A DNA stretch of 64,000 nt from Haloterrigena alkaliphila. Lineage in GTDB: Archaea > Halobacteriota > Halobacteria > Halobacteriales > Natrialbaceae. The position numbers and the translations under genes are program-made. Location of the stretch: assembly GCF_017352155.2 (NCBI RefSeq), contig NZ_CP071462.1, positions 1,550,001 through 1,614,000 on the forward strand, read 5' to 3'. The notes below the pieces were generated by a model. That model had not been told where the DNA came from and did not search any database. It saw only the letters and a program-made list of their open reading frames with translations. Of this stretch, positions 121 to 63,739 are shown piece by piece; within the stretch, counting starts at the first letter, position 1; the number at the start of each line of letters is the position of its first letter.

Positions 121-231
121 CTAAATTTTGCCGAGGGTATGGCGAAGCCGCGCCCGTGGTTCGAAAGGCGCTTCGCGCCTTTCGTCATCACGAGAGAGCT
201 TCGCTTTCTCGAACGACAGAGCAAAATTTAG
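121..231. repeat. Small inverted-repeat element with two hairpins
   Basis: A perfect 10-bp inverted repeat (CTAAATTTTG at 121-130, CAAAATTTAG at 222-231) brackets about 110 bp. Inside are two hairpins with TTC loops: 162-184 (10-bp stem) and 191-211 (9-bp stem with one G-T pair). The right arm overlaps the stop codon of the alcohol dehydrogenase, so the element forms that gene's 3' end. It looks like a miniature element or a structured 3' UTR/terminator; no clear target-site duplication is visible. Bases 1-120 hold no gene I can support, only purine-rich GAGCGA-type sequence. Confidence 0.6.
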
Positions 232-1292
232 TTGAAGTTGTCGATGACCGGGATCCCGACCGTCTCGAAGTCGGTCATGGCCTCGAGTTTGTCGCTGACG
301 TCCTCGAGGCCGATCGTCTCGGAGACCACTTTTTCGGGCTCGAGTTTGCCCGTCGCGACCATCCGGAAGATCTCGTCGTAGCGGGTCGGCGGCATCCCCA
401 GCGAGCCGATGAACTCGATCTCCTGCATGACCATCGCGTCGGACGGGAGGGGGATGATCCCCTGTTCCTCCTGAGTCGTGAGGCCGACCTGGATGTGCTG
501 GCCGCGGGCGTCGAGACTCGAGACGGAGTTCTGACTGGTCGTCGCGATGCCCAGCGCGTCCATCGAGACGTTCGCGCCGCCGTCGGTGATTCCCTGCACC
601 TCGCCGGGGACGTCGTCGACGTCCGCCGCGTTGACGGTCTCGACCGCGCCGAGGGACTCGGCCTTCTCGAGTTTTTCGTCCTTGAGGTCGACCGCGACGA
701 CGTTCGCGCCGAGCGCGTCGGCGATGTGGACCGCCGAGAGGCCGACCCCGCCGCAGCCGTGGACCGACACCCAGTCGCCGGCGTCGACGTCGGCGCGGTG
801 GGCCAGCGCGTGGAACGAGGTCATGAACCGACAGCCCAGTCCGGCCATGTCGACCGACGAGACGCCGTCCGGGAGCGTCACGAGGTTGTGGTCGGCGACG
901 GGGACGTGGACCTGCTCGGCGAACGCGCCCTGGGCCTGCTCGATGAACCCCAGCGGCATCACGTTCTCGCAGATATTGGAGCGGCCCCGCTGACACCGCG
1001 GACAGGACCCGTCGCCGAGGTTGAAGGGAACGGCGACGTGATCGCCCTCCGCGACCCCTTCCACCTCGTCGCCGACGGCCGCGACGCGGCCGGCGGGTTC
1101 GTGGCCGAGGATCTGCCCGGGTTGGGTTTCGAGGCCGAGCCATCCCCAGTCGCCCTGCCAGCCGTGCCAGTCGCTCCGGCAGACGCCGCAGGCTTCCAGT
1201 TCGACGACGGCTCCGTCCGGCGCCGGCTCCGGCGCGTCGACGTCTTCGATCGATAGCGGTTCGCCGTGCTCCTCGAGGACTGCTGCACGCAT
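228..1292 (-). CDS. Zinc-dependent alcohol dehydrogenase (MDR family)
   Basis: The 354-residue protein is a medium-chain Zn alcohol/polyol dehydrogenase, the usual length for the family. The GroES-like domain carries the catalytic zinc set: Cys38 in GVCRSDWHG, then GHEPAG near residue 63. A Rossmann domain follows with GCGGVGLSA and an Asp at the end of beta-2 (VAVDLKDEK), which favours NAD(H) over NADP(H). The structural zinc loop reads CPRC-x7-C; the position of the usual first Cys is Asp, so only three Cys remain plus a possible Asp ligand. The substrate cannot be read from sequence. The gene stands alone and is transcribed away from DUF5784; its stop codon lies inside the 121-231 inverted-repeat element. 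Confidence 0.93.
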   Translation of the reverse strand: MRAAVLEEHGEPLSIEDVDAPEPAPDGAVVELEACGVCRSDWHGWQGDWGWLGLETQPGQILGHEPAGRVAAVGDEVEGVAEGDHVAVPFNLGDGSCPRCQRGRSNICENVMPLGFIEQAQGAFAEQVHVPVADHNLVTLPDGVSSVDMAGLGCRFMTSFHALAHRADVDAGDWVSVHGCGGVGLSAVHIADALGANVVAVDLKDEKLEKAESLGAVETVNAADVDDVPGEVQGITDGGANVSMDALGIATTSQNSVSSLDARGQHIQVGLTTQEEQGIIPLPSDAMVMQEIEFIGSLGMPPTRYDEIFRMVATGKLEPEKVVSETIGLEDVSDKLEAMTDFETVGIPVIDNFN

Positions 1293-6722: not shown

Positions 6723-7973
6723 TCACTCGAACCGCGCGTCGACGACGACGTGCGCGACGCCCGCGCTGTGGCTCTTGACGCGACGTTTCTCGACAATCTC
6801 GAGCGCTCGGCCGGCCGTCTCACTCGCGGTCTCGAGGCGCTCGAGGGGCCGCTCCCAGAGCCGCGCTTCCGGGGTGGCCTCGTGGTAGTGGAGGACGCCG
6901 CCGGGGACGAGCGCCTCGAGGGCGGCCGGGAGGAACTCGTGGGCCTCGTCCGTCCGTGAGCCGTGTCCGTCCTCGTCTAAGCCGTCGTCGCTCCCGTAGT
7001 ACCCCATCACGACGCGGTCGGCGTCGATCTCGCCCGCGAGGTCCCGGCAGTCGGTCATGTAGGCGTCGACCCGGTCCCCGACGTCGTTGAGCACGGCGTT
7101 CTCGAGCAGGTAGCGGAACGCGGTCGGGTTGAGCTCCGTCGCGGTCACCCGCGCGCCGGAGCGGGCCATCGGGAGGGTGAAGTAACCGATGCCGGCGAAC
7201 ATGTCGAAGACCCGCTCGTCGGCGTCAGTCAACTCGCCCATGCGGACGCGTTCCGCTTGATTCCCCGGCGAGAACATCACCTTCGCGGGGTCGAGCCCGT
7301 ACCGGGTCCCGTGTTCGGTGTGGATCGTCTCCGTGTCGCGCTCGCCCGCGATCAGCCGGGTGCGAGGCTCGCGGTAGGTTCCGGCCGCGCCATCGTTGGC
7401 GATCCCCTTGTCGGCCAGCACGCTGTCGGCCTCGCCGTGTCGCTCGAGCAGAGCTTCGCCCAGCGCCCGCTCGTCGGGACAGCCCTCGGGGACCGTCACG
7501 AGGATCACCGAGCCGATCACGGCCCACGAGCCCGGCACCGACTCGAGGTCCGCCTCGCTCCAGCCCCGCTCGGCCAGCAGGTCCTCGAGGTCCGGATTCC
7601 GGCGGTCGGGCTCGAGCTGGCGGACGACCTCGAGGACGCGCGTCTCGCTGGGAGGCTCCGTGACGGGCAGCGCGACCCTGTCGCCCTCGTCCTCTCGCTC
7701 GCCGCGCTCCCCGGTCGCGTCGCTCACGGGTCGTCTCTCCCCGTTCGTATCGTCCGAGGGCGTTGCTCCGCGTCGCCCTCGCGCCTCGCGCACGCGCCTC
7801 GAGTCGTCGTAGACCCCCTCGGCGCGCAGGGACTCGATGGCCGTCTCGGCACGCGATTGCTCGACGACGGCGGCCAGCGGGGCGTCGGCCTCGGCTCGCT
7901 CGAGGACGTCGTCGGCCGTCGGTTCCGCTCGCGCTGGCCCGTCGCCCTCGCTCGGCGCGTCGTCCTCACTCAT
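6723..7973 (-). CDS. Trm5/Taw2-family SAM-dependent tRNA enzyme
   Basis: A 416-residue protein of the COG2520 family, which modifies G37 of tRNA-Phe. The first 100 residues are acidic and low-complexity. A class I SAM fold follows, with motif I DMFAGIGYF at about 257-265. Where Trm5 methyltransferases have an N-L/P-P motif, this protein has MGYYGS (about 322-327) followed by 'HEFLPAALEAL' and 'GGVLHYHE'. That pattern fits Taw2, the aminocarboxypropyl transferase of wyosine synthesis, better than the methyltransferase. The ATG at 7973 overlaps the NMD3 stop in ATGAGTGA, so the two are probably translationally coupled. Confidence 0.82.
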   Translation of the reverse strand: MSEDDAPSEGDGPARAEPTADDVLERAEADAPLAAVVEQSRAETAIESLRAEGVYDDSRRVREARGRRGATPSDDTNGERRPVSDATGERGEREDEGDRVALPVTEPPSETRVLEVVRQLEPDRRNPDLEDLLAERGWSEADLESVPGSWAVIGSVILVTVPEGCPDERALGEALLERHGEADSVLADKGIANDGAAGTYREPRTRLIAGERDTETIHTEHGTRYGLDPAKVMFSPGNQAERVRMGELTDADERVFDMFAGIGYFTLPMARSGARVTATELNPTAFRYLLENAVLNDVGDRVDAYMTDCRDLAGEIDADRVVMGYYGSDDGLDEDGHGSRTDEAHEFLPAALEALVPGGVLHYHEATPEARLWERPLERLETASETAGRALEIVEKRRVKSHSAGVAHVVVDARFE

Positions 7974-11030: not shown

Positions 11031-11684
11031 ATGGGACTGTTCGACGGACTCCGGGCCGTCTTCGGCCTGCGCGCCGAGACCGACGCCAGACGCGACGCCG
11101 ACCCCGACGACCTCTTCGGGATGAGCACCGCCTACATGACGATGGAGGCCGATCTGGGCTACGAGTCGCTCGACGTCGGCGCGCTCTGTTTCTCCGGGGT
11201 CGACTCGAGCAGCTTTCGGGACGCGGTCGACGAGGTCGAGGCGATCCTCGAGGCCGGCCAGGAGGAGACCGGCACGGCGTTCTCGGTCACCAGCGACGAC
11301 CACGGCTACCACTGGGTCGTCCTCGAGGACGACGACCCCGAGGACCTGATCACGAGCATGCACTTCGCCGCCGACACCTTCATCGAGCACGGCTACGGCT
11401 CGCGGCTGCTGGCGGCCGTCTTCGCCTACGAGGATGGCGATGCCGCTTCGCGGCATCGGGACGGAGGCGGTGAAACCGCCGGAGTGGACGGTCCCGCCTA
11501 CTGGATCTACTCGTTCCGTCGCGGCCGATTCTACCCCTTCGCCCCCCGCTCCGGCCGCGAGCGCGACTCGAGCGCCGAGTTCAAACTCGAGGCGGCCCTG
11601 GACGGCGAACTCGAGATCGAGCGAGAGAAGGAGTACTGGTACCCGCTGTGGCCGAGTTCGGGCGGAACGCATCCCTGGGAGTGA
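11031..11684 (+). CDS. pspAB: PspA-associated protein PspAB
   Basis: A 217-residue soluble acidic protein starting MGLFDGLRAVFG. I recognise the PspAB family, an accessory of the PspA envelope-stress protein commonly encoded near htpX in haloarchaea, as here. No membrane segment or catalytic motif is evident. Residues about 136-150 are an odd Arg/Gly/His-rich insert between 'FAYEDG' and 'DGPAYWIYS'. It is encoded by two back-to-back hairpins (11438-11458 with a TTC loop, 11466-11480 with a GAA loop). The reading frame is kept, so the gene is probably functional. Confidence 0.82.
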   Translation: MGLFDGLRAVFGLRAETDARRDADPDDLFGMSTAYMTMEADLGYESLDVGALCFSGVDSSSFRDAVDEVEAILEAGQEETGTAFSVTSDDHGYHWVVLEDDDPEDLITSMHFAADTFIEHGYGSRLLAAVFAYEDGDAASRHRDGGGETAGVDGPAYWIYSFRRGRFYPFAPRSGRERDSSAEFKLEAALDGELEIEREKEYWYPLWPSSGGTHPWE

Positions 11685-12055: not shown

Positions 12056-13735
12056 ATGAGTGGCGTTTCGAACCGGCTCGCGGGCGGGATACTCGTCGCA
12101 GCAGGCCTCTTCCTCTCGTTGTTTCACCTGGCCACCGCCGTCGGCCTGCGGACGACGTCGGTACCGTTGCTCGTCACGGTGCCGCCCCTCGTGCTATCGC
12201 TCGGGCTGATCGGCGCCGGCGCGTTGCTCGCACGAGAGCGCCTGCTTCCCGGGCGGTTCGCGGGACGGCTGCTGGCGTGGACCTGTGCGGGCGTGCTGGC
12301 GCTCACGGCGCTGGCTGCGTGGCTGTTCGCCGCGACCGTCGTCAGCGGGTTCTCGCTGCTGGACCCGCTGACGGCGATGCTCAACGTCTCCACGTTCGGT
12401 GCGCTCGTCGGCCTGCTGGTGGGCGTGTACGACGCCCGGGGAACGGACCGACAGCGCTCGATCGAGCAGTTGAATCGCATCAACGACACGCTCCGCATCG
12501 CGACTCGAGAGCTGGTGAACAAGACGGAGCGATCGGCCCTCGAGCGGGCCGTCTGCGAGCGGTTGAGCGAATCCGACCCCTACGAGGCGGTGTGGATCGG
12601 CCGATACGACGAGGCGAACGCCCGCGTCCGCCCTGCGGCGTGGTCCGGGTTCGACGACGAGTACTTCGAGTCGATCGAGATCACCGTCGACGACAGCCCG
12701 ACCGGCAACGGTCCCGGCGGCCGCGCCATCAAGCGCCGCGAGATGCAGTGCGTTCCGAACGTGTTCGAGGATCCGACGATGGAGCCGTGGTGGGACCTGC
12801 TGGAGTGGCACGGCGTCCAGTCGCTCGCGGTCGTTCCTGTCGGTCACGGCGATACCGTCTACGGGTTTTTCAGCATCTACGCGGACCGCCAGAACGTGTT
12901 CGACGACCACGAACGAACGGTCCTCACGGAACTCGGCGAGACGATCGGTCACGCCATCGCCACGATCGAGACCCGCGAACGCCTCGCGGAACGCGAGCGC
13001 GAACTGGCCCGGCAGAACGAACGGCTGGACGCGTTCGCCGGCGTCGTCTCGCACGACCTCCGGAACCCGCTCAACGTCGCGTCGGGCAACCTCGAGCTCG
13101 CCCGCGAGGAGCGGGACGACGAGTATCTCTCCGAGGTGTCGGACGCGTTGGCCCGCATGGACGCTCTCATCGGGGATCTGCTGACGCTCGCGCGACAGGG
13201 CGAACTGGTCGACGAGTTCGATCGCGTCCCGTTTCGCCCCCTCGTCGAATCGGCGTGGTCGACGGCCGGGTCCTCAGCGGCGACGCTCCGGATCGAGGGC
13301 GACCCGGGCGTGATCTCGTGCGACCGGGACCGACTGCGTCAGTTGCTCGAGAACCTGTTTCGGAACTGCGTGGAACACGGTTCCACGGGCAGTCGGCCGC
13401 AGGCCGACGACAGTGTGGAACACGGCTCCGCGAACGACCGGCCCGCAGCCGACGAGGACAGCGGCGATCCGGGCGTAACCGTCACCGTCCGTCGGACGAA
13501 CGCAGGGTTCGTCGTCGAAGACGACGGCCCCGGGATCCCGGCCGACCGTCGGGAGGCGGTGTTCGAGATGGGGTACACGACGAACGCCGAGGGGACCGGG
13601 TTCGGACTCAACATCGTTCGCAGCATCGCGGAGGCCCACGGCTGGGACGTCTCGGTCGACGAGAGCGCCGCGGACGGCGCCCGCTTCGAGTTCTCCGGCG
13701 TCGAGCCGGTCGAGTCGGAGCAGAGCGCGCGCTGA
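12056..13735 (+). CDS. Membrane sensor histidine kinase with GAF domain
   Basis: A 559-residue kinase. Residues 1-125 hold four hydrophobic segments. A GAF domain covers about 155-310. The dimerisation/phosphoacceptor helix has VVSHDLRNPL with His at about 332. The HATPase domain has the N-box (LFRNCVEHG), the G1 box DDGPGIP and a G2 box GTGFGLNIV. Between N-box and the next strand lies an insert (about residues 438-467) in which 'VEHGS' is repeated; its DNA contains hairpins at 13369-13387 and 13392-13408. The cognate regulator is not nearby. Translation may start at ATG 12056; a longer in-frame N-terminus is possible but looks unlike a signal. Confidence 0.92.
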   Translation: MSGVSNRLAGGILVAAGLFLSLFHLATAVGLRTTSVPLLVTVPPLVLSLGLIGAGALLARERLLPGRFAGRLLAWTCAGVLALTALAAWLFAATVVSGFSLLDPLTAMLNVSTFGALVGLLVGVYDARGTDRQRSIEQLNRINDTLRIATRELVNKTERSALERAVCERLSESDPYEAVWIGRYDEANARVRPAAWSGFDDEYFESIEITVDDSPTGNGPGGRAIKRREMQCVPNVFEDPTMEPWWDLLEWHGVQSLAVVPVGHGDTVYGFFSIYADRQNVFDDHERTVLTELGETIGHAIATIETRERLAERERELARQNERLDAFAGVVSHDLRNPLNVASGNLELAREERDDEYLSEVSDALARMDALIGDLLTLARQGELVDEFDRVPFRPLVESAWSTAGSSAATLRIEGDPGVISCDRDRLRQLLENLFRNCVEHGSTGSRPQADDSVEHGSANDRPAADEDSGDPGVTVTVRRTNAGFVVEDDGPGIPADRREAVFEMGYTTNAEGTGFGLNIVRSIAEAHGWDVSVDESAADGARFEFSGVEPVESEQSAR

Positions 13736-57915: not shown

Positions 57916-58170
57916 GTCCTGCTATCCTGGCAACAGGGAATCGCCTCGCCCTCCCCACCCGATTCGCTCACTGCGTCTGCTCACGGGCGCGAAGCGCCCG
58001 TTCGCATGGTATGCGGGACCACCGGTCCCGCACTATTCGCTCATCCAAAGGAAGACGCGAAGCGTCTTCCAGGCCGTCACTCGCTACGCTCGCGACGACC
58101 TCGCGCGATATCGTGTCGCGGTTCGTTCGCCACTCACCGCGACACAGCGCGCGCCACCGCACCGGATCCT
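57916..58170 (+). repeat. Dispersed repeat, copy C with hairpin insertions
   Basis: Plus-strand copy, longer than the others. Three perfect hairpins interrupt it: 57983-58001 (8-bp stem, GAA loop), 58012-58032 (9 bp, ACC loop), 58050-58070 (9 bp, GAA loop). It faces copy B across a 70-bp spacer, giving an inverted pair. Confidence 0.75.
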
Positions 58171-63019: not shown

Positions 63020-63739
63020 GTGAGCAACGATACGACTGCGGACGACAACGGAGAAACTGCGTCGGTGATCGTCGTCGGCGGCGGTGCCGCCGGTCTGAGC
63101 GCCGCGCTGTTTACCGCGAAGAACGGCCTCGAGACGACGGTGTTCGACACCGACGAGACGTGGATGCACAAGGCCCACCTGTTCAACTACCTCGGCATCG
63201 GCTCCGTCGGCGGCAGCGAGTTCATGGCGACGGCCCGCCAGCAGGTCGACGACTTCGGCGCCGACCGCCGACAGGGCGAGGAAGTGACCGCGGTCGGCGA
63301 GTCCGGCGACGGCTTCGTCGTCGAGACCAGCGTTGCGTCGGAGACGCAACGAGCAGACGGCGATAGCGCGGAGCGAAGCTCCGCGGACCGTTCGAGCGGG
63401 CGACGCCCGCGAGAAGAAGCCGTCGACGAGGACGGGAGCTACGAGGCCGACTTCGTCGTCCTCGCGACGGGCGCGAACCGCGACCTCGCCGAGGATCTCG
63501 GCGTCGCGTTCACCGACGAGGGCACCGTCGACGTCGGCGTCGAGATGGAGACCAGCCTCGAGGGCGCGTACGCGACGGGCGCGATGGTCCGCGCCGAGGA
63601 GTGGCAGGCCGCGATCGCCGTCGGCGACGGCGCCGCCGCAGCACTCAACATCCTCTCGAGCGTAAAGGGTGAACACTTCCACGACTTCGACGTCCCGACC
63701 GACGCCGAGCGCGTCTTCGGGGAACACGTCGCGGAGTAA
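63020..63739 (+). CDS. Thioredoxin reductase-like NAD(P)/FAD oxidoreductase with insert
   Basis: A 239-residue small FAD-dependent oxidoreductase. FAD motif GGGAAGLSAA near 20 and ATGAMVRAEEW-type C-terminal FAD motif. No CxxC redox pair is seen, unlike true thioredoxin reductase. Residues about 104-131 (VASETQRADGDSAERSSADR...) are a polar insert encoded by three adjacent hairpins: 63331-63351 (9-bp stem, GGA loop), 63367-63385 (8 bp, GAA), 63396-63410 (6 bp, GAC). The frame is kept. GTG start. Confidence 0.85.
   Translation: MSNDTTADDNGETASVIVVGGGAAGLSAALFTAKNGLETTVFDTDETWMHKAHLFNYLGIGSVGGSEFMATARQQVDDFGADRRQGEEVTAVGESGDGFVVETSVASETQRADGDSAERSSADRSSGRRPREEAVDEDGSYEADFVVLATGANRDLAEDLGVAFTDEGTVDVGVEMETSLEGAYATGAMVRAEEWQAAIAVGDGAAAALNILSSVKGEHFHDFDVPTDAERVFGEHVAE

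Follow-up and report, generated by a model that had tools for sequence, protein, structure and literature searches.

A double-hairpin element, probably spread by copying, recurs in many unrelated, often essential protein genes of haloarchaea, nearly always in the same reading frame

The window analysed here, a stretch of 64,000 nucleotides from Haloterrigena alkaliphila (contig NZ_CP071462.1, positions 1,550,001 to 1,614,000), contains a pspAB gene that carries two adjacent hairpins with three-base loops. The features at this locus are given below.

11031..11684, plus strand: pspAB host gene from the ORF list, 217 aa (Pfam PF22742 PspAB, E 5.3e-72)
11434..11493, plus strand: region in which the 201-aa form is 48 nt (16 codons) shorter, edges ambiguous
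11438..11458, plus strand: hairpin 1, CGATGCCGC-TTC-GCGGCATCG, with a 9-bp stem and a 3-base loop (GAA on the other strand)
11459..11465, plus strand: 7-nt linker GGACGGA between the hairpins (AGACGGA being the most frequent form elsewhere)
11466..11480, plus strand: hairpin 2, GGCGGT-GAA-ACCGCC, with a 6-bp stem and a GNA loop

The Pfam match spans nearly the entire 217-aa product, and the two hairpins, first pointed out in a preliminary description of the DNA, are both perfect, in frame and located within this ORF. The gene measures 651 nt compared with 603 nt for the common form, a difference of 48 nt that keeps the frame. The same description took the native loop for a continuous 'YEDG/DGPAYW'; the short loop of the common form reads YENRDGPAYW instead, so RDG may be native. 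The edges of the insert are ambiguous because RDG/DG is present in both the filled and the empty state. In the AlphaFold2 model of PspAB (mean pLDDT, 76), the insert is predicted to form a disordered loop between two strands, with residues 138-151 (pLDDT of <50) lying between strands 126-135 and 156-161. Hairpins of this kind were frequent in the window, which contains eight perfect triloop stems of at least 9 bp (mean 1.75 and maximum 6 in 20 third-order Markov copies) and no tetraloop hairpin with a stem of that length. A 400-kb sample of the same genome gave 23 such triloop stems and 6 with four-base loops, and two Markov copies of the sample gave 7 and 3 triloop stems.

PspAB was found in 122 of the 125 genomes of the family; 69 loops were read, and the other 53 genes were judged from match length alone (all 603 nt). 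A long insert was present in 16 of the 69 loops and a shortened form in one (L017), which agrees with the earlier expectation that the insert would be absent from most homologues; it was also expected to vary where present, and the variation consisted largely of paired changes. The insert alleles belong to seven genera (g1, g8, g11, g15, g16, g21, and g23), each of which has insert-free or differently altered relatives. A tree was built from 68 protein rows with the loop excluded; on it, the insert label (16 rows, with L017 outside the group) required 12 changes, and well-supported branches make no fewer than 6 of these unavoidable. With random labels the average was 14.6 changes, and 24 of 500 needed as few as 12. 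Insert presence is only weakly clustered on this tree. The DNA beside the insert was nearest to that of insert-free relatives, as in G064, which was 95-99% identical to G065, G061 or G075, and this affinity held even in the nearest 60-80 nt. Long recombination tracts were considered as a means of bringing in the insert, and the flank identities give them no support. Two species of other families, Halostella pelagica (Natronoarchaeaceae) and Halorussus aquaticus (Haladaptataceae), carry a pspAB insert at the same position. A similar peptide encoded without hairpin DNA was sought in distant PspAB proteins, and both of these homologues have hairpin DNA too, that of Halorussus aquaticus with one first-stem mismatch. 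Arms have decayed in three Natrinema pspAB alleles (L014-L016) and in L008, which speaks against the reading given in the preliminary description.

Base pairing among the pspAB inserts was assessed in an alignment (A1) of 11 of the 16 alleles, a choice that favours pairing, as it left out L014-L016 (decayed and shorter), L032 (with a nested copy of the A-type relative described below) and L011 (its element being the same as that of L003). Standard pairs filled 97.6% of the pair cells, compared with 23-58% in slid controls, and double changes occurred at 5 of the 15 pairs, a number reached by 0 of 500 shuffles. Examples are CGATACCGC/GCGGTATCG in L004 and CGATGGCGC/GCGCCATCG in L005; through such paired changes, the residues encoded on the two sides of a hairpin can both be altered.

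A covariance model built from the 11 pspAB alleles found matches in 117 of the 125 family genomes (E<=1e-3), and a broader model of 50 rows found them in 167 of 292 genomes of the class, spanning 54 of 77 genera and several families (E<=1e-5), with E-values reaching 1e-14 per genome. When applied to 1.26 Mb from three genomes, the broader model gave seven matches at E<=1e-3, three of which were pspAB. A phylum-wide draw yielded matches in 31 of 294 genomes, all in the same order as the window's genome; it was dropped as an outgroup control, since the share of the 294 genomes outside that order is not given. The preliminary description had overlooked that the pspAB element also sits in many other genes. 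Fifty-eight non-pspAB copies, taken among the best-scoring matches, were read, and 55 of them show an exact 43-nt layout consisting of a 9-3-9 hairpin, a 7-nt linker and a 6-3-6 hairpin. Grouped by host, the exact copies form 13 multi-member clusters and 5 singles, and the non-pspAB hosts represent about 16 unrelated protein families. By Pfam, these include DNA topoisomerase (TopA), glutaredoxin plus thioredoxin-reductase-like, tetrapyrrole methylase, tRNA-synt_1g (MetG), tRNA-synt_1 (which we call IleS-like), AMP-binding, glucose/sorbosone dehydrogenase, lumazine-binding (riboflavin synthase), Cys/Met PLP enzyme, M20 peptidase, biotin carboxylase (AccC), PQQ_2, urocanase, the ribosomal proteins uL13 and uL29, and AAA_11/12 helicase.

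Across these unrelated genes, and across genera, the layout nearly always keeps to a single orientation and a single frame. Codon bias placed 50 of the 58 copies in that frame and orientation; the same frame was indicated by Pfam for L159 (Ribosomal_L13), L183 (Ribosomal_L29) and L169 (TP_methylase), and by homology to L169 for L181 and L185. Coding in one frame is supported for 55 of the 58 copies, those without such support being L174, L180 and L188; no 43-nt copy among those read was demonstrably intergenic, the three having no assigned coding state. Further copies in the window's own genome (helicase L196, L211, L352, and L353) are in the same frame, and 23 of 23 class-wide loci that were fetched, six of which repeat earlier places, are open in it (the frame here was imposed, not picked by codon bias). 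Translated, the element gives approximately [G/S]-x-A-x-x-x-x-R-D-[G/E]-G-G-E-[A/T]-A, a Gly-rich and hydrophilic peptide. In TopA, different stems occupy one site in different families.

For the dispersed copies, pairing was examined in an alignment (A3) of 50 rows, comprising the window copy and 49 of the 55 exact non-pspAB copies; L164, L166, L192, L203, L204, and L206 were left out, as were L188, L197, and L211 (40-42 nt). Among 48 distinct copies, 97.8% of the cells were paired (slid controls, 27-57%), and 118 cells held double changes versus 30.9 in shuffles. The 47 distinct non-pspAB copies carried 21 different first arms; stem 1 was perfect in 32 and imperfect in 15, and stem 2 was perfect in 45. 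Loop 2 was GNA in 43 of the 47 and loop 1 was GNA/TNC in 36, compared with 11-15% among the 4-8 bp hairpins of the own-genome sample. The Glu codon of loop 2 was GAA in all 42 of 42 copies versus 22.5% in host genes, and codon 9 was GGA or GAA, both disfavoured, in 50 of 53 copies (L174 and L180 were left out of this count, their coding state being unproven). Copies sharing a site in related species are not independent, and the P values are hence too small. The loop, codon and pairing counts thus place the constraint on the nucleic acid and not on the peptide alone. GNA loops are described as forming exceptionally stable DNA mini-hairpins (PMC4686876), and the stability argument rests on this literature because the energy models used give GNA no bonus; hairpin energy was useless as a test, both parameter sets scoring nearly all 64 triloops alike. 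A known RNA family was ruled out, as an Rfam covariance search of the window gave only a tRNA at gathering score and one of six loci with related elements gave no match at E<=1.

Some copies share the same stems and carry inverted loops, namely TCC (L172) versus GGA (L182 and L190) in TopA, TCC (L157) versus GGA (L178) in the IleS-like genes, TTC (L179) versus GAA (L210) in riboflavin synthase, and TTC (L007) versus GAA (L006) in pspAB. Inversions accounted for 6 of 22 same-stem, different-loop pairs in a test that took in 11 further hairpins from class-wide loci, compared with 12.4% expected (P of about 0.05); this mild excess is suggestive only as a sign of template switching.

The preliminary description also remarked that such hairpins recur in the window, and triloop arrays indeed lie near 162-240, 13369-13408, 57977-58070 and 63331-63416, with the following features.

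162..240, plus strand: apparently intergenic triloop array, CGAAAGGCGC-TTC-GCGCCTTTCG plus a second, imperfect hairpin, with similar linkers
13369..13408, plus strand: two triloop hairpins (VEHGSTGSRPQADD) in an ORF that we name histidine-kinase-like, a naming made outside any family search
57977..58042, minus strand: apparently intergenic A-type copy (67.6 bits and E 1.6e-15 with the R3 model, this copy being among the nine that built R3)
63331..63416, plus strand: related coding element in a pyridine-nucleotide-oxidoreductase-like ORF, CGTTGCGTC-GGA-GACGCAACG followed by an A-type double hairpin

The A-type relative is about 61 nt long and consists of TAGCG, a hairpin, the linker ACC(G/A)T(T/G/C)CGA(G/A)CGG and a second hairpin. 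Its model matched 25 of 31 genomes at E<=1e-6, with 29 matches in the window's own genome and 45 in G027. Among 43 distinct copies, 98.0% of the cells were paired and 96 double changes were counted versus 23.8, in an alignment fitted to the structure. Many A-type copies appear intergenic; 8 of 25 loci examined (L366 being unparsed) are coding, in one frame, and encode AERSSADRSSG or a close variant. At 63331-63416, the A-type copy lies within what is elsewhere hairpin 2 (GACGGC..GCCGTC), and in the pspAB of G017 and the metG of G068 it comes after the first hairpin and linker; these positions suggest that one element inserts into the other. In L127 (G024, minus strand, about 7300-7411), the first hairpin of an A-type copy in an oxidoreductase-like gene itself contains more hairpins, as though elements were inserting into one another's loops. 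The same A-type element is found at the same place in two paralogous oxidoreductase-like genes of the window's own genome (L092 and L093, at G000:C1:1613384 and 3449821).

In both pspAB and MetG, close relatives differ in a mosaic fashion in whether a given site is filled, and the arms change together. The metG loop was visible in 29 of 30 fetched loci, with the element in 5 and an empty site in 22; the metG of G068 has the element's first hairpin followed by an A-type element, that of G035 holds a remnant, and five further metG loci were all empty. Filled and empty metG sites differ by 48 nt, as in pspAB. The flanks of the filled metG of G061 were 97% like those of G075 and 95-99% like those of G064, both empty. 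Clean in-frame insertions of the related A-type were seen between genomes about 94% alike. When 400-kb syntenic parts of G023 and G024 were compared, indels of at least 40 nt filled 29 rows, with one event listed twice (A300398/300399). Ten of these rows hold a triloop stem of at least 7 bp versus an expectation of 1.15 for random segments matched to the full set of 32 indel rows of at least 20 nt; loops of 4, 6, and 8 bases gave 1, 2, and 1, and hairpins with 5- and 7-base loops were mostly the same triloop hairpins counted again. A 124-nt insertion in G023 relative to G024 (offset 138462, C1 about 3219463) repeats GGGCGCGATGGGATTTGAACCCA, which resembles a tRNA end and is perhaps an integration scar.

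We consider it probable that the pspAB insert belongs to a dispersed haloarchaeal element, a protein-coding double hairpin with 43 nt of paired layout in a 48-nt insertion. Copies would have spread at the DNA level, and selection would retain those in a tolerable frame and in surface loops. Template switching during replication may copy one arm from the other and occasionally invert a loop, so that the hairpins stay matched, and the GNA loops, unusually stable as single-stranded DNA hairpins, may help this matching. The arms are probably kept matched by processes at the nucleic-acid level, replication template switching being the one proposed here. Yeast coding genes have yielded inferred cases of template switching between inverted repeats, GAA/TTC swaps among them (PMC8604942), and the process has been proposed for RNA stems (PMC8794818). 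Several findings stand against this explanation: neither transposition nor excision was seen, no mobilising enzyme has been linked to the element, the arms of L008 and L014-L016 are broken, the first stem is imperfect in the 15 copies mentioned above, and the same sites recur across genera. Such recurrence could equally reflect insertions repeated at a site, exchange of alleles, or an old insertion followed by loss.

An account compatible with the dispersed element, and one that may well hold although we place it somewhat short of probable, is that each site received a single ancient insertion that was inherited vertically, lost many times and exchanged between species by homologous recombination, with no mobility today. 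The filling of the same few sites in several genera, with the pspAB site filled in two other families as well, fits such a history, as do the decayed remnants in the metG of G035 and in pspAB L014-L017. However, the pspAB flanks are closest to insert-free relatives, right up to the adjoining 60-80 nt (G064 with G065/G061/G075), the MetG of G061 is likewise closest to G075/G064, the TopA stems at one site differ between families, and common DNA in unrelated genes still requires copying. Retention of the hairpin by selection for mRNA structure, acting in regulation, pausing or co-translational folding, appears unlikely. Strong covariation is the classical sign of a selected stem, but template switching can yield it without selection (PMC8794818, PMC8604942), the element is optional between sister species, and its hosts have no common function and the element no Rfam match. 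We regard it as very improbable that the stretch is absent from the protein through ribosome bypass or RNA splicing: bypassed palindromic inserts are described for a yeast mitochondrion (PMC6649704), but such processes would need neither the one open frame supported for nearly all copies read nor the 48-nt difference in pspAB and metG. Convergence of low-complexity hydrophilic loops on Gly/Glu/Ala codons through GC-rich coding, with hairpins as a by-product, is hardly tenable. The frequency of short chance hairpins in this genome favours it, but the disfavoured codons in loop and linker, the stems that vary in protein yet stay paired, and the model E-values speak against it; the codon and pairing counts have already refuted it unless they are artefacts.

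Among known systems, Rickettsia palindromic elements (RPEs) insert in frame in unrelated protein genes and encode a conserved peptide (PMC10969869, PMC6649704), and the haloarchaeal element resembles them in its palindromic DNA in frame, its many unrelated protein genes and its conserved peptide. RPEs are bacterial, about 150 bp long and nearly half within ORFs (PMC10969869), and their repeats are described as becoming less identical with time (PMC6649704). Compared by description, the haloarchaeal element differs in being archaeal and in having two hairpins and a 43-nt paired unit in a 48-nt insertion rather than about 150 bp; its arms stay matched, and its copies are supported as coding in one frame. 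It would be best read as an RPE-like element, far shorter. REP/BIME sequences are GTAG-/CGTC-tagged, RAYT-linked hairpins of 20-40 bp, present in many copies and sometimes in genes (PMC3733652); no word beginning Halo or Natr was found in the text of that paper. The A-type relatives are similarly multicopy and often intergenic. In contrast, the haloarchaeal element has no fixed GTAG/CGTC tag and its stems differ from copy to copy; the 43-nt copies begin with CG and vary at the third and fourth bases, and A-type copies have NTAG before the stem, only some of them GTAG. As a candidate mobiliser, the Y1/RAYT transposase is represented in the window's own genome by just one intact Y1 gene and one broken.

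Fungal mitochondrial double-hairpin elements consist of two adjacent hairpins with very short loops. The haloarchaeal element shares this arrangement, whereas the fungal elements lie mostly in non-coding mitochondrial DNA. Nematomorpha mitochondria have perfect inverted repeats in protein genes that are gained and lost between species, for which template switching has been proposed; these palindromes reach 284 bp and, in the account given in PMC6649704, do not appear to be one common dispersed sequence (PMC6649704). Inverted repeats in protein genes and mosaic presence are common to both systems, and the haloarchaeal element differs in its size of 43-48 nt and its one common dispersed layout.

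With hosts such as MetG, IleS-like, TopA and ribosomal protein genes, an archaeal family spread across a whole class would show that this way of gaining new protein segments has also arisen elsewhere. The haloarchaeal hosts are culturable and offer many sites with empty, full and decayed alleles, making the arrival of the element, the matching of its arms by template switching and its effects on proteins directly approachable. For annotators, such inserts mean common DNA, not common ancestry of the host proteins. No earlier report of the element came up when open-licence papers in PMC were searched. In a bolder version that we offer tentatively, as possible rather than probable, it is perhaps the smallest known dispersed element living inside protein genes; it might spread in the form of single-stranded DNA, whether through template switching, snap-back synthesis or an enzyme that recognises hairpins, be filtered to one frame and maintain its palindromes by copying one arm from the other, and might have rewritten loops of essential proteins throughout the class, with the A-type inserting into its hairpins.

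Two further observations concern the other arrays of the window. Between 121 and 231, a 10-base inverted repeat, CTAAATTTTG...CAAAATTTAG, encloses the triloop array and possibly marks a complete larger element. At 13369-13470, the histidine-kinase-like gene contains a repeated VEHGS segment with triloop hairpins, and repeats like this one occur in haloarchaeal kinases.
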